From Oscillospiraceae bacterium (GTDB lineage Bacteria > Bacillota > Clostridia > Oscillospirales > Ruminococcaceae), in assembly GCA_024695445.1 (NCBI GenBank), contig JAILIG010000091.1, forward strand, positions 1 to 37,791: 37,791 bases of DNA, given 5' to 3'. Of the stretch, positions 5,447 to 15,920 are shown in pieces. Under the pieces are notes generated by a model. The model was not told where the DNA came from. It worked only from the letters and a program-made list of their open reading frames with translations, and searched no databases. How positions within the stretch are numbered: the first letter of the stretch is position 1; each line of letters begins with the position of its first letter. Both the position numbers and the translations under genes were made by a program.

Positions 5447-6540
5447 AAAGCCACTTGCAGAACGACGAACAGCGGAATCGGATGCTTTCGGCGCTGCTTT
5501 CATGGTTTGCGGAGAATGCCCGCGACCTGCCGTGGCGCGCCGACCGGGAGCCGTATCATGTCTGGCTCTCGGAGATCATGCTCCAGCAGACGCGTGTGGA
5601 AGCGGTAAAGCCCTATTATACGTGCTTTTTGAGCACGCTGCCGGATATTCCGGCGCTGGCGGACTGCGATGAGGAGCTGCTTCTGAAGCTCTGGGAGGGC
5701 CTCGGCTATTACAGCCGTGTCCGGAATCTGCAAAAAGGCGCAAAACAGATCATGACGCAGTACGGCGGAGTTTTTCCGCGCACCTATGCGGAAATCCGTG
5801 CAATCTCCGGCATCGGGGACTACACGGCGGGCGCCGTCGGCTCGATCTGTTTTGACCTGCCGGAGCCTGCGGTGGACGGCAATGTGCTGCGCGTCATGAC
5901 GAGACTGACCGCGGACGGCCGCTGCACCGATGAACCGGCCGTGAAGCGCGAAATCCGCGAGACACTGCGTGTTTTGTACCGGCAGACGGCTGCCGGCACA
6001 CGCGGAACGCTGACGCAGGCGCTGATGGAACTCGGCGCGACGGTCTGTGTGCCGAACGGCGCGCCGCACTGCGGCGTCTGTCCGCTGCGAGAGGACTGTG
6101 CGGCACACCGGAGCGGCTGCGAGATGCAGTTTCCGGTGCGAAAGCAGAAAAAGGCCCGCAGAACCGAGCATTACACCGTGTATATTTTGCAGTGCGGCGA
6201 CAAAATCGCCGTGCGAAAGCGCCCTTCAGCCGGGCTGCTGGCGGGACTTTGGGAGCTGCCGCATCTGGACGGGCTCATGGAGGCGCAGCCGGCGCTCGAT
6301 GCAGCAAAATGCTGGCAGACCGGCACGGCGGAGATTGTTTCTGTGCGGCGGCGCAGTCATATTTTTACGCATATTGAGTGGAAGATGAACTGTGTGCATT
6401 TGCTCGTGACGCAAATGCCGGACTGCTTTACATGGGTTACGAAAGCACAGCTTCACGCAGAGACGGCACTGCCGACCGCGTTCCGCATCTGTCTGCCGGA
6501 CGGGTTTGACGGAGCGGAAACGGCGTTTCTGACAAACTGA
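5443..6540 (+). CDS. mutY: A/G-specific adenine glycosylase MutY
   Basis: MutY removes adenine mispaired with 8-oxoguanine. The N-terminal helix-hairpin-helix glycosylase domain shows SEIMLQQTRVEAV with the catalytic Glu, GIGDYTAGAVGS (the HhH hairpin) and VDGNVLRV with the catalytic Asp. Four cysteines for a 4Fe-4S cluster follow, but the first spacing is C-X7-C rather than the usual C-X6-C, then X2 and X5. The C-terminal part (about residues 230-365) looks like the NUDIX-like 8-oxoG-reading domain. The length (365) is normal. The start is uncertain: GTG 5443 overlaps the previous stop and touches GGAGGAG directly; TTG 5455 has a better distance; ATG 5482 is also possible. Confidence 0.93.
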   Translation: MKSHLQNDEQRNRMLSALLSWFAENARDLPWRADREPYHVWLSEIMLQQTRVEAVKPYYTCFLSTLPDIPALADCDEELLLKLWEGLGYYSRVRNLQKGAKQIMTQYGGVFPRTYAEIRAISGIGDYTAGAVGSICFDLPEPAVDGNVLRVMTRLTADGRCTDEPAVKREIRETLRVLYRQTAAGTRGTLTQALMELGATVCVPNGAPHCGVCPLREDCAAHRSGCEMQFPVRKQKKARRTEHYTVYILQCGDKIAVRKRPSAGLLAGLWELPHLDGLMEAQPALDAAKCWQTGTAEIVSVRRRSHIFTHIEWKMNCVHLLVTQMPDCFTWVTKAQLHAETALPTAFRICLPDGFDGAETAFLTN

Positions 6541-6558
6541 GGAGAGGGGGCCTGTACG

Positions 6559-7902
6559 ATGCCGCATTCATCCGGAGGCGGTTCTCACAGCGGCGGCAGC
6601 CACGGGGGCAGCCACAGCAGCGGAGGAAGTCACAGCAGCAGCGGCGGCAGCTCCTCCACTTCACCGGTCAGAAAGAGACCGTATCCCGGCGCACACCGGT
6701 ACCGCTATCGCCGGTTCGGCTCAGACCGCTATTTCTATTCTTCCGTCGAGCCGAAAAAGATTTTTCATCCGGCAAGACTGCTGATCGGTCTGTTCTATAT
6801 TCCCTTCCTGCTGCCGATTATCGCGGGGATACCCACGCAGCTGCGGAAAGCTTTTCAGAAGGGACCGGACGAGATCATCATTCAGGATGAAGCAAATTTG
6901 CTCGGCTCACAGGACTCCCTGCAGGAGGAAATGCGCGCCTTTTACAAAAAAACTGCCGTTACGCCGGCGGTCATTACGGTTCACAACGAGGACTGGAACA
7001 GCCGCTACAATACGCTGGAAAGCTATGCGTACGACCGGTATGTCCGGGAATTTGACGATGAATTGCACTGGCTGATTGTGTATTCCGAACCCAAGAACCC
7101 CGATCCGAAGTTCGTGGAATGGTACTGGGAGGGAATGCAGGGTGATGACACCGATCCGGTTCTGACAGACCATGTGACATCGCAGTTCACTTCTTATGTC
7201 TATGAGAATCTGAAGGCGGTCAGTGAGAATCAGTCCGTGGGAGAGCAGACCGTGAGCACGGTGTTATCAAACGGCTTTCATCTTGTGACGGACATTGCCG
7301 AACGGCCGGGGCTGTTCAGCCGTCTGAAAACCGTATTTTCTTTCTGGCCGGTGCTGCTGTTCCTCGGCTTCCACGCTTACTTCATGATGGGGCTGAACGA
7401 GCTGAAATACCGCAAGGCGGAGCTTGTACCGGACGATCCGAATGAGATTCCGGCCGTTCCGGACGGCACAGACCGTTTCGATGGGATGCAGCAGTCATAC
7501 GGTACACAGCAGCCCTACGGCACACAGCAGCCTTATGGCGCACAGCAGCCCTACGGTACACAGCAGCCCTACGGCGCGCAGCAGCCCTACGGTACACAGC
7601 AGCCATACGGCACGCAGCAGCCATACGGTACGCAGCAGCCATACGGCGCGCAGCAGCCATACGGCACGCAGCAGCCGTGGCCGGCGGAAATGCCTTCCCT
7701 GCAGCCGGCAGAACCGGAGCCGACCTATGAGCTGCCGCCGCTTCTGGAAGCCCCGAAGCCGGATCCGGACGAATTGCAGACAGATGTCTGCCGCTGGTGC
7801 GGAATTCGGTATGTCCGCGGCATTCAGTATTGCCCGGGATGCGGCGTATCTCTCGCGGAGTTCCGCCGCGACGATCCGCCAAATACAGGAACTGTTTCAT
7901 AA
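6559..7902 (+). CDS. Membrane protein with TPM-like domain, hexapeptide repeat and zinc ribbon
   Basis: This 447-residue protein has an unusual mosaic. Residues 1-34 are almost only Gly, Ser and His. A hydrophobic segment (about 75-93) is followed by a soluble domain (about 110-245) resembling the TPM fold: a QDEANLLG start, then a region with ITVHNEDW and LHWLIVYS. A second membrane segment follows (about 262-280). Residues 314-373 are ten tandem copies of YG(T/A)QQP. The C-terminus has a zinc ribbon beginning at Cys411 (CRWC, then CPGC). The start is ATG 6559 after AGGAGAGGGGG. It lies 18 bp after mutY and 29 bp before pyrE. The TPM call is moderate; role and partners are unknown. Confidence 0.8.
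   Translation: MPHSSGGGSHSGGSHGGSHSSGGSHSSSGGSSSTSPVRKRPYPGAHRYRYRRFGSDRYFYSSVEPKKIFHPARLLIGLFYIPFLLPIIAGIPTQLRKAFQKGPDEIIIQDEANLLGSQDSLQEEMRAFYKKTAVTPAVITVHNEDWNSRYNTLESYAYDRYVREFDDELHWLIVYSEPKNPDPKFVEWYWEGMQGDDTDPVLTDHVTSQFTSYVYENLKAVSENQSVGEQTVSTVLSNGFHLVTDIAERPGLFSRLKTVFSFWPVLLFLGFHAYFMMGLNELKYRKAELVPDDPNEIPAVPDGTDRFDGMQQSYGTQQPYGTQQPYGAQQPYGTQQPYGAQQPYGTQQPYGTQQPYGTQQPYGAQQPYGTQQPWPAEMPSLQPAEPEPTYELPPLLEAPKPDPDELQTDVCRWCGIRYVRGIQYCPGCGVSLAEFRRDDPPNTGTVS
7498..7677 (+). repeat. Tandem 18-bp repeat (10 units) inside the TPM-like gene
   Basis: Ten consecutive 18-base units encode YG(T/A)QQP. Units differ only at the Thr/Ala codon and at wobble positions (tac/tat, ggt/ggc). The frame is kept throughout. 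Such short, nearly identical units can change copy number by slippage. Confidence 0.95.
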
Positions 7903-7931: not shown

Positions 7932-8585
7932 ATGACCTACAAAGAGGAATTCATCAGATTCATGACCGAGTGCGGCGTTCTGACCTTCGGCGATTTCACG
8001 CTGAAATCCGGCAGAAAGGCCCCGTACTTCATCAATACCGGCAATTACAAAACCGGTGCGCAGCTCTGCCGTCTCGGCGAGTATTATGCACACTGCATCA
8101 CGGAGCACGGCCTCAAAGCCGATGTGCTGTTCGGACCGGCCTACAAGGGCATTCCGCTGGCGGCAGCCGCGGCCATCGCGCTGTATAAGGAGCACGGCGT
8201 GGAGGTCGGCTATGCCTATGACCGCAAGGAGGTCAAGGATCACGGCGAGGGCGGCATGATTGTCGGCTCGAAACTCGAAGCCGGCACCAGGGTTGTGCTG
8301 ATTGAGGATGTGATGACATCCGGCAAGGCACTCCGCGAGGTGTACCCGAAGCTCAAGTCCGTCGCCGATGTGGATATCACCGGCATGATTATCACGGTGG
8401 ACCGTCAGGAAAAGGGCCTCAACAGCGAAAAATCCGCTGTGCAGGAGGTCAAGGCGGAGTTCGGCGTCGATGTGTATTCGATTGTCACGGTCAGCGACAT
8501 CATCGCCGCGATTGAGAGCGGTGTGGTGGACGGCAAGGCGTATCTGCCGCAGATGCTTGCCTACCGTGAGCAGTACGGCGTGTAA
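7932..8585 (+). CDS. pyrE: Orotate phosphoribosyltransferase
   Basis: PyrE joins orotate and PRPP to give OMP in pyrimidine synthesis. The 217 residues match the family length. The PRPP-binding loop VVLIEDVMTSGKA is intact, and the N-terminus has the typical TLKSGRKAPYFIN stretch; the flexible catalytic loop (YDRKEVKDHGEGG) is also present. The start is ATG 7932 after GGAAAGGAAG. It is the last gene of the glnN operon, ending just before a strong bidirectional terminator. No PyrR-type attenuator is seen directly upstream, only 29 bases separating it from the preceding gene. Confidence 0.96.
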   Translation: MTYKEEFIRFMTECGVLTFGDFTLKSGRKAPYFINTGNYKTGAQLCRLGEYYAHCITEHGLKADVLFGPAYKGIPLAAAAAIALYKEHGVEVGYAYDRKEVKDHGEGGMIVGSKLEAGTRVVLIEDVMTSGKALREVYPKLKSVADVDITGMIITVDRQEKGLNSEKSAVQEVKAEFGVDVYSIVTVSDIIAAIESGVVDGKAYLPQMLAYREQYGV

Positions 8586-9492: not shown

Positions 9493-9909
9493 TTATTCTG
9501 CTTTTGCCTCTTCAAAGGTGATGTTGTTGTCCTTCAGTTCCTTTGTGAGGTCGTCGTAGGCATTCTTTGCGGCATTGTCGTCGTGCAGCTTGACGCGGGT
9601 GTCCTTGTCGAGCTTTTTCAGTTCAGTGATGAGCGATTCCAGATCGGTGGTCTTGTTCTGGTAGAGGTAGCTGCTGCCGCTGACCGTGACATCCACCGAA
9701 GCGATCTGCTCCACGGTTGTTGCCGCAGTCGATTCCGGCGCCGAAGTCACCATGCTGCTTCCGGTGCTGCTGCCGCCGTTTCCGTCCCCCTTGCCGAAGC
9801 CGAGGCCCTTGAGCCAGCCGAGCTTGAATGCGAGGAACACGAGCAGCGCGAGAATCGCAAGAATGATAATAACAATCAGCTTGCCCTTGCCTTTTCTTTT
9901 CATTTGCAT
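9493..9909 (-). CDS. Single-pass membrane protein with an ExbD-like extracytoplasmic domain
   Basis: A 138-residue protein: a short basic N-terminus, one strongly hydrophobic segment (about residues 11-29), a Gly/Ser/Thr-rich linker (about 38-65) and a C-terminal domain (about 68-138). That domain has the beta-alpha pattern of the ExbD/TolR periplasmic domain: VDVTVSGSSYLYQ, a helix LESLITELKKL, the strand RVKLHDDNA, then a final helix. Unlike the protein encoded just upstream it has no Asp in its membrane segment, so it would not take part in proton passage itself. The start is ATG 9909 with AGGAG 9 bases upstream. It follows the ExbD-like gene by 20 bp. The ExbD-like reading is an inference from pattern. 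Confidence 0.7.
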   Translation of the reverse strand: MQMKRKGKGKLIVIIILAILALLVFLAFKLGWLKGLGFGKGDGNGGSSTGSSMVTSAPESTAATTVEQIASVDVTVSGSSYLYQNKTTDLESLITELKKLDKDTRVKLHDDNAAKNAYDDLTKELKDNNITFEEAKAE

Positions 9910-9929
9910 GATAGTCTACTCCTTCTGTT

Positions 9930-10529
9930 TTAGAATGGTGAAATATCCGTTTCCGAAATATACAGATGCGGATAATCTGCTTTCAGCGCCTTGAGCGCAT
10001 TCTGCACCGTCTGATAAGCGGCTCTGGAGCCGGGCTTTTCCCCCTCATAGAGGAATTCGCAGAGGACGGTGTCCTCTTTCTGATAGCGCATCTCCGAGAG
10101 AATGCTGCGGAGCTGCGCACTGCTGACGGATCCGGATTCCAGCATATGCGGCACACTGTCACCGCGCCGGACGCTGAGCATCCAGTCGGTGTTGTCGAGC
10201 TCCAGCCTCAGCTTGAGGTTCTGTCCGAGCCCGTAATACTGCAGTGCGGCGAGGTCGGCAGCGCGCTGTGCGTCGGCTTCGTTGAGCTGCCGGAGCGCTT
10301 CTTCTGCCTGTTCCTTCTGCGCCTGTGCATCGGCGAGCTGCGATTCTGCCTTGTTTTTCAGATCCTTTGCCTCATCCATGACGCTCTGTGCGGCCCGCTG
10401 ATCGGCCGCAGCACTTTCCTTCGCCTGATCGACATCCATGCGGGAGAACAGTACGAAGAAAAAGAGCAGCAGCATCGTGACATCGAGCAAAGTCGTGAAG
10501 TCCAGCAGAACCTCATGTCCGCGTCTCAT
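9930..10529 (-). CDS. ExbD/TolR/MotB-like membrane protein with coiled coil
   Basis: The N-terminus has one membrane helix with the ExbD/TolR signature: DFTTLLDVTMLLLFFFV, including Asp16 at the place of the proton-carrying Asp of ExbD. A long Ala/Gln/Glu/Lys-rich coiled coil follows (about residues 33-92), then a C-terminal domain of about 100 residues with beta-alpha elements (VLCEFLYEGEKPG, a helix, LYISETDI). The coiled coil between helix and domain is more like MotB or ZorB-type spacing than like ExbD of E. coli. The ATG at 10529 overlaps the preceding stop by 4 bases, so the two are translationally coupled and probably made as one complex in the cytoplasmic membrane. The substrate or driven partner is unknown. 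Confidence 0.82.
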   Translation of the reverse strand: MRRGHEVLLDFTTLLDVTMLLLFFFVLFSRMDVDQAKESAAADQRAAQSVMDEAKDLKNKAESQLADAQAQKEQAEEALRQLNEADAQRAADLAALQYYGLGQNLKLRLELDNTDWMLSVRRGDSVPHMLESGSVSSAQLRSILSEMRYQKEDTVLCEFLYEGEKPGSRAAYQTVQNALKALKADYPHLYISETDISPF

Positions 10530-11008
10530 AAATCCTCCTGCCGTGCGGCGCCCGGCCGTTCTCTGGCATCGAGAAATCTGCCTGATTTCGCAAGCATTTC
10601 CTCGGCGTCATGTGCGGCAAAGGCCGCGTGCAGCACCTTGAAAATGACGGCGAAGATGATGCCCCATGCAGTCGAGGTCAGTGCTTCAAAGAAATGCTGC
10701 TTGACGCCTTCCATTTCGCCGGTCAGATCGAGTCCGACCAGAGCCTTGACCGTTCCGAACATACCGAGCAGCGGAAAAATGGAGATACAGGTCGTGAACA
10801 GCGTGTAGAAGATGCTGAGGCGTCTGCGGGAGTTGATGAGTGCGTTGAGAGAGCGTTCAGAGGGCGATTCCGAAAACCAGTGCTGCACATCCCGTGCCTT
10901 GAGCCGGACAACAAAGAGCAGCACACCGGTCAGCAGTGCCCATCCGCCGATATACCAGTCTGCGGAAAAGAGATGCGGAAACATCTTTCCCCAGAATTCA
11001 GGCTTCAT
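10526..11008 (-). CDS. MotA/TolQ/ExbB-type proton channel protein
   Basis: A 160-residue protein with three hydrophobic segments (about residues 17-35, 65-92 and 108-130). The last two carry the family pattern: PLLGMFGTVKAL with Thr86 and EALTSTAWGII with Thr113, matching the pore-lining Thr148 and Thr181 of E. coli ExbB. It is shorter than ExbB (about 240), lacking most of the cytoplasmic part. In the family, five such subunits surround two ExbD-type helices and use the proton or sodium gradient to drive motion outside the membrane. The start is ATG 11008 with GAGGTGA 7 bases upstream. It is the first gene of the cassette and has a perfect promoter. Confidence 0.88.
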   Translation of the reverse strand: MKPEFWGKMFPHLFSADWYIGGWALLTGVLLFVVRLKARDVQHWFSESPSERSLNALINSRRRLSIFYTLFTTCISIFPLLGMFGTVKALVGLDLTGEMEGVKQHFFEALTSTAWGIIFAVIFKVLHAAFAAHDAEEMLAKSGRFLDARERPGAARQEDL

Positions 11009-11235: not shown

Positions 11236-12132
11236 TTGCACCAGACAGCGGCATCCGGCAGGAGCCGGGGCATCGTCCTGATTTTATGCTCGGCGTTCTG
11301 CTTTGCGCTGATGAATCTCTGTATCCGGCTGACGGGCGATGTTCCGACGCTGCAAAAATGCTTTTTCCGGAATTTCTTTGCACTGATGATTGCCGCATCT
11401 TCGCTCATCCGGACGAAAACACCGCTGAAAATCGGGAAGGGCAATCTGAAATACCTGCTGCTGCGCTCGGTTTCGGGCGGGCTCGGCATGGTCTGCAATT
11501 TCTATGCCGTCGATCACATGGCGATCTCGGACGCTTCGATGCTGAACAAGCTGTCGCCCTTCTTTGCAATCATCTTCTCGTATTTCCTGCTGCATGAGAA
11601 GGCGTCGCTGCCCGAATGGCTGGCAGTCGGTGCGGCATTTGCCGGCGCGATGCTTGTTGCCAAGCCCTCCTTCGGCATGGAGTTTCTGCCCGCACTTGCC
11701 GGCATCGCAGGCGGCTTCGGGGCGGGGCTTGCCTATGCCAATGTCCGCAGGCTCGGAATGCGCGGGGAAAACAGCATGATAATCGTGGCGTTTTTCTCTG
11801 CGTTCACTTCGCTGATGCTGCTGCCGAATCTGCTGTTCCGGTATGTGCCGATGACCGGCCGGCAGTGGATGTTCCTCATTCTGACGGGCATTGCGGCAGC
11901 GGGCGGACAGATCTTCATTACGAAGGCATATGCCTGCGCCCCTGCAAAAGAGATTTCGGTTTACGATTTTTCAATCGTGATTTTCGCGGCTTTGTTCGGA
12001 TATCTCTTCTTAAAGCAGCGCCCCGACTGGCTCAGCGTCGCCGGCTATGTCATCATCATCGGGACAGCCGTATTGAAATGGCGCTATGTGACGGCGGAGA
12101 GCCGCCGCAGTCAGCCGGAAGAAAACAGTTGA
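11236..12132 (+). CDS. EamA-family (DMT superfamily) transporter
   Basis: A 298-residue protein with about ten hydrophobic segments arranged as two EamA halves. The first runs from SAFCFALMNLCIRL, the second from GGFGAGLAYANVRRL. The motif around GQIFITKAYACAPA and the C-terminal ALFGYLFLKQRP are typical. Members export metabolites such as amino acids; the substrate cannot be told here. The start is TTG 11236, 10 bases after AGGAG; the ATG at 11213 is out of frame. It has its own promoter and terminator, so it is monocistronic. Confidence 0.9.
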   Translation: MHQTAASGRSRGIVLILCSAFCFALMNLCIRLTGDVPTLQKCFFRNFFALMIAASSLIRTKTPLKIGKGNLKYLLLRSVSGGLGMVCNFYAVDHMAISDASMLNKLSPFFAIIFSYFLLHEKASLPEWLAVGAAFAGAMLVAKPSFGMEFLPALAGIAGGFGAGLAYANVRRLGMRGENSMIIVAFFSAFTSLMLLPNLLFRYVPMTGRQWMFLILTGIAAAGGQIFITKAYACAPAKEISVYDFSIVIFAALFGYLFLKQRPDWLSVAGYVIIIGTAVLKWRYVTAESRRSQPEENS

Positions 12133-14366: not shown

Positions 14367-15920
14367 ATGAAGAAGATAACAAAGCAGCGTCTGCTGTTTG
14401 CAGCGGCAGTGCTGCTGTTTTCGGTGATTTGCTGCCTGACGAACATCATATCGGGCGACGACTATCTCGGCTATTACTCACGCGAGGATTCGGCTGTGTC
14501 CTACATTGCCGGCATCAGCGGGCGGTATTTCTCCAATCTGATTGCGTACCCGATCATCCGCTATCCGGCGGCGCGCTTCTGTCTGTATGTGCCGATCCTG
14601 TTTCTCTGCATCTGGCTGCTGGCGGACTGCGTGCAGATCAAAGAAAAGCGCATCGGGATTTCGTGGCTTGCGCTGGGACTGTTCTGCACGATGGTGCCGG
14701 AGATGTTCGCGCAGGTGCTGATGTGGCTGGGTGCCTTTGCACCGTATGTGCCGCCGATGATTTTTGCGATGCTGTTTCTCCGGACGGTATTCCGTGAATT
14801 TGCCGGGAAGCCGGTGAAATCCAAATGGGCGGTGCCCTGCTTTGCGGCGGTCGGCTTTGCCGGAGCGCTCTGCACGGAGCATATGGCAATCTACGCCTGC
14901 TGTCTTTCGGTATTTGTCCTGCTGTACGCCTTTTTCCGCAAGGATCTGAAGCTCCGCGCCTATCAGATCGCATACGCGGCCGGAACGGCAGCCGGAACGG
15001 TGCTGCTGTTTTTGAATCCGAATTACTCCGCGGTCGCAAACGGCACAGAGGAGCACACCTACCGGTTCATTGAATCTTCTCCGCTGGACATCATGATGCA
15101 GCTTTATATGAAGGTCATTGTCTTTTATTCGCAGCGCCTCTGGATTCTCAATTTCCTGATAGCGGCGTCGCTTCTGCTGCTGTACCGCAGGGCCGACCGG
15201 AGCGGCTGGAAGCCGGACAAGTGCCGGTTTGCAAAGGCAGCGCTGACGATTGCTTTCCTGTTCCCGCTGTACTTCTGCATCAATTACGGCTATGTGCGGC
15301 TGGAGTCGATTGACGGTGCGATGCGTCTTTCCGCGCTGGAAACGGCATTTTCGTTCCTGCACCTGATTTCGGTGCTGTATCTCGGCGTGATTCTCTGCAA
15401 GCGGCAGAGCGGGCTGCGCCTGACCGTATTTCTTGTGAGCACGGTGATCTGCACCGCGCCGTTCTGCATGGCAAACCCAGTATCGCAGCGCTGCTTCTTC
15501 TCGACCTTCTGCTTCTGGGTGCTGGCGGCACTGGAAATCTGCACGCAGGCGGTCTGCGCGCTGGACGGTGAGACCGCCGGATACTGCCGCAGGGGCGCCT
15601 TCCTGCTCGGAGCGGTCATGGCAGGGTATCTGAGCTATATCAACATCCTGAACTTCGTCACATTCCGAATCAATGTGTCGGAGGTCAGGGCACAGCTTGC
15701 GGAGAGCCCGAACCGGGCGGTGCTGATCGACGAGCCGTATATGCGCTACACGCCGTCGTTCTTCTTTAATACGGTGTTTGACAAGCTCGACGAATATGCG
15801 AGCGGATCGAAGGAGGATTATCTTACCTGTATGCTGCGCTATCACGGGATTCCGAAGGAACAGGTCGATCCGGAGAAGCTGGTCGTGACGCATCACAGTC
15901 TGTACGATTATCTGCTGTAA
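14367..15920 (+). CDS. Large polytopic membrane protein, DUF6056/glycosyltransferase-C-like
   Basis: 517 residues with about eleven hydrophobic segments. After the first helix comes SGDDYLGYY, an acidic loop placed as in GT-C glycosyltransferases and the DUF6056 family, which use a polyprenyl-linked sugar donor; the similarity is a visual judgement. The last about 90 residues, after the final helix, form a soluble tail (AESPNRAVLIDEP onward). The start is ATG 14367 with AAAGGAG 7 bases upstream; the frame is open back to 13857, but that stretch crosses the promoter and the opposite-strand gene. It is followed directly by the trp leader and has no visible terminator. Confidence 0.75.
   Translation: MKKITKQRLLFAAAVLLFSVICCLTNIISGDDYLGYYSREDSAVSYIAGISGRYFSNLIAYPIIRYPAARFCLYVPILFLCIWLLADCVQIKEKRIGISWLALGLFCTMVPEMFAQVLMWLGAFAPYVPPMIFAMLFLRTVFREFAGKPVKSKWAVPCFAAVGFAGALCTEHMAIYACCLSVFVLLYAFFRKDLKLRAYQIAYAAGTAAGTVLLFLNPNYSAVANGTEEHTYRFIESSPLDIMMQLYMKVIVFYSQRLWILNFLIAASLLLLYRRADRSGWKPDKCRFAKAALTIAFLFPLYFCINYGYVRLESIDGAMRLSALETAFSFLHLISVLYLGVILCKRQSGLRLTVFLVSTVICTAPFCMANPVSQRCFFSTFCFWVLAALEICTQAVCALDGETAGYCRRGAFLLGAVMAGYLSYINILNFVTFRINVSEVRAQLAESPNRAVLIDEPYMRYTPSFFFNTVFDKLDEYASGSKEDYLTCMLRYHGIPKEQVDPEKLVVTHHSLYDYLL

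Follow-up and report, generated by a model that had tools for sequence, protein, structure and literature searches.

The B-D-T cassette

The window analysed here, 37,791 nucleotides of contig JAILIG010000091.1 from an Oscillospiraceae bacterium (assembly GCA_024695445.1), holds three genes on its minus strand, which we call B, D and T. An earlier note, made from the letters of the window alone, described them as an ExbB/ExbD-like ion-channel cassette in an apparently single-membrane bacterium. That observation is confirmed, and the interpretation that went with it is, as a whole, partly supported. The start of D and the stop of B share four bases (ATGA) and the gap from D to T is 20 bases; the three are therefore read as one operon, with the following features (all on the minus strand).

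9493–11008: B-D-T operon, three open reading frames filling the span
10526..11008: B, a channel subunit of MotA/TolQ/ExbB type with a short cytoplasmic loop, 160 amino acids (open reading frame, Pfam MotA_ExbB)
10751..10753: codon of pore Thr86 of B, in the motif GMFGTV (Thr in 26/26 aligned B)
10670..10672: codon of pore Thr113 of B, in the motif ALTSTAWG (Thr in 26/26 aligned B)
9930..10529: D, an ExbD-type axle of 199 amino acids with an N-terminal membrane helix, a long stalk and an alpha/beta head (open reading frame, Pfam, AlphaFold2)
10482..10484: codon of membrane Asp16 of D, in the motif DFTTLLDV (Asp in 26/26 aligned D)
10230..10433: residues 33–100 of D, predicted continuous helical stalk (AlphaFold2 model)
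9493..9909: T, the third protein, 138 amino acids (open reading frame, ExbD_2, AlphaFold2, Foldseek, VIA-align)
9496..9702: residues 70–138 of T, head resembling the ExbD/TolR periplasmic domain (AlphaFold2 model, Foldseek, VIA-align)

Judged by its sequence, B is a member of the MotA/TolQ/ExbB channel superfamily, as had been proposed for this short protein. It scores 41.4 bits against Pfam MotA_ExbB (cut-off 22.9), and the cassette B exceeds that cut-off in all 15 of the carrier genomes searched. A profile of 20 B sequences matches solved MotA, ExbB and TolQ chains with best E values of 3e-4, 1e-3 and 0.03, respectively, the first unrelated chain appearing at E 0.35. Some relatives are longer than the window protein, up to about 200 residues by open frame. 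Conserved pore threonines have a functional role in MotA/TolQ/ExbB channels. The two that the note had reported as retained, Thr86 and Thr113, are invariant in the 26 B proteins (window and 25 relatives); the role of such threonines is given in PMC12204202 (papers cited by PMC number were available in excerpt).

D had been described as an ExbD-type protein with a membrane aspartate and a long coiled coil; its family matches, the aspartate and a predicted helix of some 90 residues are in keeping with this. D scores 24.1 bits against the Pfam ExbD profile, below the cut-off of 25.4, and the match covers residues 6–89, the helix and the stalk; 18 of the 20 members of our alignment A1 match the same profile at E < 0.01. 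Asp16 is unchanged in all the D proteins (window and 25). The AlphaFold2 model, with a mean predicted local distance difference test score of 83.6, places a helix at residues 12–100 followed by an alpha/beta head. At 1.5 Å per residue the stalk would span roughly 10 nm if straight. The Foldseek and VIA-align lists for the head contain no ExbD row, which does not rule out ExbD. From the positive-inside pattern of the N-termini, the heads of both D and T are predicted to face outwards.

T has a lysine-rich N-terminus, one membrane helix without an acid, a linker composed of a glycine repeat and a variable part, and a head. It matches ExbD_2 weakly. ExbD and TolR are the top Foldseek and VIA-align rows for the AlphaFold2 model of its outer domain, which had been called ExbD-like and does model as an ExbD/TolR periplasmic domain; on this model it is the clearest ExbD-type head of the cassette. 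The T profile, run against the sequences of the Protein Data Bank, picked up TatA (E 0.014) and weaker hits, with no ExbD. None of 21 T proteins has an acid in the predicted membrane helix, so T is not filed as ExbD and is not expected to conduct ions in the manner of ExbD. The marks of TonB and TolA are, according to PMC12204202, an SHLS motif and a histidine in the membrane helix; a histidine of this kind was found in only one of the 21 predicted helices, at its edge, and SHLS in one of the 21 proteins, located in the head rather than the helix. We found no profile similarity between D and T and no co-variation between the lengths of the T linker and the D stalk. A GxGxGxG repeat is present in 17 of the 21 T proteins, by eye just past the membrane helix (window 9772–9807). 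A second T-like gene follows T in tandem at 8282–8704 of L020 (genome G132), 2748–3170 of L019 (G035) and 6545–6982 of L099 (G294), L and G numbers being our handles for loci and genomes. Read by eye, the copy in L099 starts with a signal like that of a lipoprotein, which would fit a lipid anchor taking the place of the membrane helix.

Distribution, gene order and selection

The set is rare and patchy: B is present in 13 of 148 genomes of the family, the window's own included. A scan of named genomes added 10 loci, nine from Oscillospiraceae or Ruminococcus and one from Lachnospiraceae. Herbivore guts are the stated source of five of these ten genomes (rumen of yak and of sheep, caecum of roe deer, colon of goat, faeces of horse), and another three belong to the RUG set of rumen bins. 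A sample of the order gave 8 of 295 genomes at E < 0.001, five of which were taken as cassettes (G000, G132, G081, G351, G294); G219, G364 and G366 were judged unrelated from an inspection of their open frames. The D profile found 6 of 398 genomes in a sample of the phylum, namely the window's genome, four with canonical ExbB-ExbD operons, and G490, which was left out.

With the window counted apart, 25 related loci from 24 genomes (G096 holds two) were read; 23 of them are the 13 places from the family search (window excluded) and the 10 named-genome loci. The order B-D-T holds in 22 of these 23, the T of L027 being recognised by profile, and G294 and G351 of the order sample have B-D-T too, so the order is kept in 24 of the 25 and the three coupled genes do travel together, which the note had put forward as a question for survey. 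The exception is G090, where B, D and T share one contig and B lies about 15.5 kb from D-T; there, D-T adjoin dnaN, recF and gyrB (read from the sequence by eye), and a gene for a CE2-type esterase overlaps B by 4 bases in the place of D (L018, 8803–10382). Alignments A1–A3 leave out L027 and L028, A1 also L022, and A3 also L035 and L036; A2 leaves out the second T copies, and in L018 B stands without an adjacent D or T. The count of invariant residues includes all of the loci left out (26 B, 26 D). L027 (10873–12867) and L028 (10803–12785) hold a divergent cassette with a longer T (E 2.5e-6 and 8.1e-7 against the A2 profile) and two extra genes, one for 142–144 amino acids without a Pfam match and one for 322–355 amino acids that is tRNA_anti-like (above the cut-off in L027 and below it in L028). 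Chemotaxis-like genes, recognised by eye, follow the L028 cassette on the opposite strand.

The ratio of nonsynonymous to synonymous divergence (dN/dS) was calculated with our own Nei–Gojobori script for two close pairs. The window and L029 give 0.08 (B), 0.10 (D) and 0.17 (T), with 0.17 for the adjoining ylmH; L033 and L036 give 0.27, 0.09 and 0.15 for B, D and T, respectively. These figures are rough because synonymous sites have diverged widely (0.3 to about 1). They indicate purifying selection on all three genes in both pairs, which speaks against a decaying relic. The D stalk (residues 33–100) has a ratio of 0.03 against L029, at a dS of 1.82 that is near saturation, and the T linker, taken by itself, is under weaker constraint (0.59 over 26 codons, window against L029). 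Distances between loci correlate with r = 0.67 for B-D, 0.45 for B-T and 0.60 for D-T (18 loci, no species-tree control), and none of 2000 label shuffles reached the B-T or the D-T correlation.

Host envelope and neighbouring genes

Neither Omp85 nor TonB_C was found in any of 15 cassette genomes, in keeping with the single-membrane host that had been suggested; the same searches of control genomes found Omp85 in 7 of 14 and TonB_C in 3 of 14, E. coli being positive for both. The four canonical operons of the phylum sample, called by the B and D profiles, encode an ExbB of 203–210 and an ExbD of 135–154 amino acids, and their genomes are all Omp85-positive. Since Omp85 is present in 4/4 of these genomes and 0/15 of the carriers, the canonical form pairs with the outer-membrane marker and the cassette form goes without it (phylum sample of 398).

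In the window, a divergent EamA transporter gene starts at 11236 on the plus strand, upstream of the cassette, and ylmH lies downstream on the same strand as B-D-T; the adjoining genes, typed by Pfam, are these two, a phosphoribosyltransferase and a MatE gene. No TonB, flagellar or known defence partner was thus seen among them, as the note had stated, these neighbours lying outside the PADLOC scan. Further away (6559–7902) is a protein of 447 amino acids with no Pfam match at E < 0.001, a Gly/Ser/His-rich start and many PYGTQQ/PYGAQQ repeats.

Neighbours were clustered over 23 loci, several only 5–7 kb long. Apart from the cassette genes themselves, two unidentified clusters emerged, one in five loci and one in four, with no constant place or strand. 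A metallophosphoesterase cluster is shared by three loci (L023, L025, L026), where it lies on the same strand, three to five genes downstream; no neighbour has a fixed position in more than 3 of the 23. A Pfam run on 19 chosen neighbours and one T identified a D-Ala-D-Ala carboxypeptidase (L038), a dockerin protein (L023), a fucosidase (L016), GDSL/CE2 esterases (L026, L018) and a SpaA-repeat protein (L100), none of them recurrent in place. PADLOC gave no defence assignment to B, D or T of the window. It was also run on seven proteins from L021, L027 and L034, and among these loci only L021 lies in a defence neighbourhood, with Septu PtuA/PtuB and an SspB-like protein near the cassette (5554–7451 and 14541–15362). 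A reading as a mobile element was rejected: viral contigs hold no relative (searched with the B alignment; 24 stretches matched the pattern and 0 were confirmed). No relative was found on plasmids, searched with B alone.

Co-occurrence was counted for two families, cohesin and flagellin, without correction for two tests or for kinship. Cohesin is present in 8 of 13 cassette genomes and 37 of 135 others (Fisher p = 0.022, uncorrected), and in 7 of 12 and 26 of 98 when genomes at least 90% complete are considered (p = 0.041); for want of those corrections it is a lead only. The sole genome of the same genus, G108, carries cohesins without the cassette. For flagellin there is no association: it occurs in 5 of 13 carriers as against 44 of 135 other genomes (p = 0.76), and is absent from the window's own genome; the five flagellin-positive carriers have a separate, stronger MotA_ExbB match besides the cassette B.

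Discussion

The cassette shares with the ExbB-ExbD pair of Ton systems the channel family, the pore threonines, an Asp helix of ExbD type, the order of B then D, and an ExbD-like outer domain, which here is on T. It differs in that the hosts searched lack Omp85 and TonB_C, its B has 160 residues as against 203–210 in the four canonical copies, and its D is long-stalked with a head of its own, the ExbD-type head being on the separate T. From TolQ-TolR of the Tol-Pal system it is likewise set apart by hosts without the outer-membrane marker Omp85, no family search having been made for TolA, TolB or Pal. GldL-GldM resembles it in that the axle subunit reaches far outwards, as a shaft of 18 nm in GldM, but that shaft consists of four folded domains whereas D has one predicted helix and one head; GldLM is said in the excerpt of PMC9389320, the source of these GldM data, to be exclusive to Bacteroidetes.

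We consider it reasonably likely that B-D-T is a motor of the ExbBD/TolQR type, driven by the ion-motive force and adapted to an envelope that has no outer membrane; in place of such a membrane, it probably works mechanically on the cell wall or the surface. Five B subunits would ring two D helices (5:2), and ion flow by way of the threonine-lined pore and Asp16 would turn or shift the D dimer, whose helical stalk of ~10 nm could pass the motion outwards to the wall. T would be anchored separately in the membrane by its helix without an ion-binding acid and joined through its flexible linker. According to PMC12905483, in the part available, ExbD and TolR heads possess a site for peptidoglycan, and that of ExbD also binds the D-box of TonB; T therefore plausibly grips either the wall or the D head, its own head docking on one or the other. 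The load would be the wall itself or a surface structure bound to it, and the cohesin counts offer a weak lead towards cohesin-bearing surface enzyme systems. What is new is the division of labour, with the Asp helix and stalk on D and the clearest ExbD/TolR-type head on the tethered T.

The same parts could serve a gated ion channel or tension sensor, in which D and T would feel tension in the wall or linker and gate a leak through B. The very short B, the predicted outward orientation of both heads and the fact that no motor load has been identified suit this idea, and the evidence fits force output and gating alike; yet the long predicted stalk of D suits the transmission of force, and the relatives of the cassette are regarded as motors in what we have of PMC9389320, and we hold a sensor to be unlikely. 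A functionless Ton system, vestigial or transferred, is what PMC12204202 supposes, in its available part, for Ton systems met in monoderm Clostridia, perhaps the cassette genes among them, and the patchy distribution (13/148) would agree with it. The selection signal (dN/dS 0.08–0.27), however, largely refutes such a relic, and the conserved pore residues, the gene order kept in 24/25 loci with all three genes on one contig in the 25th, the absence of TonB_C from 15 carriers and an architecture unlike the canonical ExbB-ExbD of Omp85-positive genomes in the phylum make it very improbable. Contamination of metagenome bins by a diderm bacterium might be suspected from the window's genome, a draft of 190 contigs with 3.75% contamination, and from the ten named relatives, which are metagenome-assembled; but G132 (one contig) and G113 (two contigs) carry the cassette on contigs of 2.7 and 3.6 Mb, ylmH is a neighbour in both the window and L029, and Omp85 is missing from the 15 carriers searched, so that we give this explanation hardly any weight.

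Two further readings take the cassette to be a motor with another task. Zorya ZorA-ZorB is a related motor outside the classic roles, and a Zorya system is defined by ZorA/ZorB with ZorC/D or ZorE. An anti-phage motor like ZorAB, named as a remote homologue in the excerpt of PMC12505986, would accord with the patchy, fast-diverging distribution, with the L021 cassette that adjoins Septu genes and with matches of D to PADLOC profiles (JetC at E 0.0026 over the coiled coil, ZorB at E 0.056 only). Against it, B and T have no PADLOC match, most neighbours being outside that scan; no ZorA was matched by PADLOC, and no genome search for ZorC/D/E was made; no neighbour gene keeps a fixed place in more than three of the 23 loci, and neither viral contigs (B alignment) nor plasmids (B alone) gave a relative. 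We regard a defence role as improbable. A stator for flagellar or gliding motility finds support in the channel family and Asp helix shared with MotA-MotB, in the solved structures that the D profile matches best, which are MotB chains (E 0.002; Clostridium MotB is among those reached), and in MotS/MotB models, which rank among the best NCBIfam matches of D. However, D has no OmpA-type domain by Pfam, searched up to E 10, flagellin is not associated with the cassette and is lacking in the window's genome, and the five carriers with flagellin hold their separate, stronger MotA_ExbB match; a stator is accordingly a very remote prospect.

Motors of the ExbBD type are treated as a Gram-negative property. 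A 2022 review states, in the passages available, that it is still to be tested whether Ton orthologues function in Gram-positives, and how (PMC9389320), and a 2025 study supposes Ton systems in monoderms to be likely non-functional (PMC12204202, likewise in part). The three-gene unit itself was described in no title or opening of an abstract in the literature searched, a library without most subscription journals and all bioRxiv preprints. The cassette offers a well-delimited example, conserved and under selection, in genomes that lack an outer-membrane marker. It is conceivable, though doubtful, that monoderm gut Clostridia (the order of the window, probably Oscillospirales) have their own class of ion-driven, wall-spanning motor, with axle and head split between two proteins, which would move or pull wall-bound surface machinery such as assemblies of fibre-degrading enzymes. 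Because the cassette is conserved and under selection and its hosts lack the outer-membrane marker, what such a motor does against the wall alone is now directly testable with three small genes.
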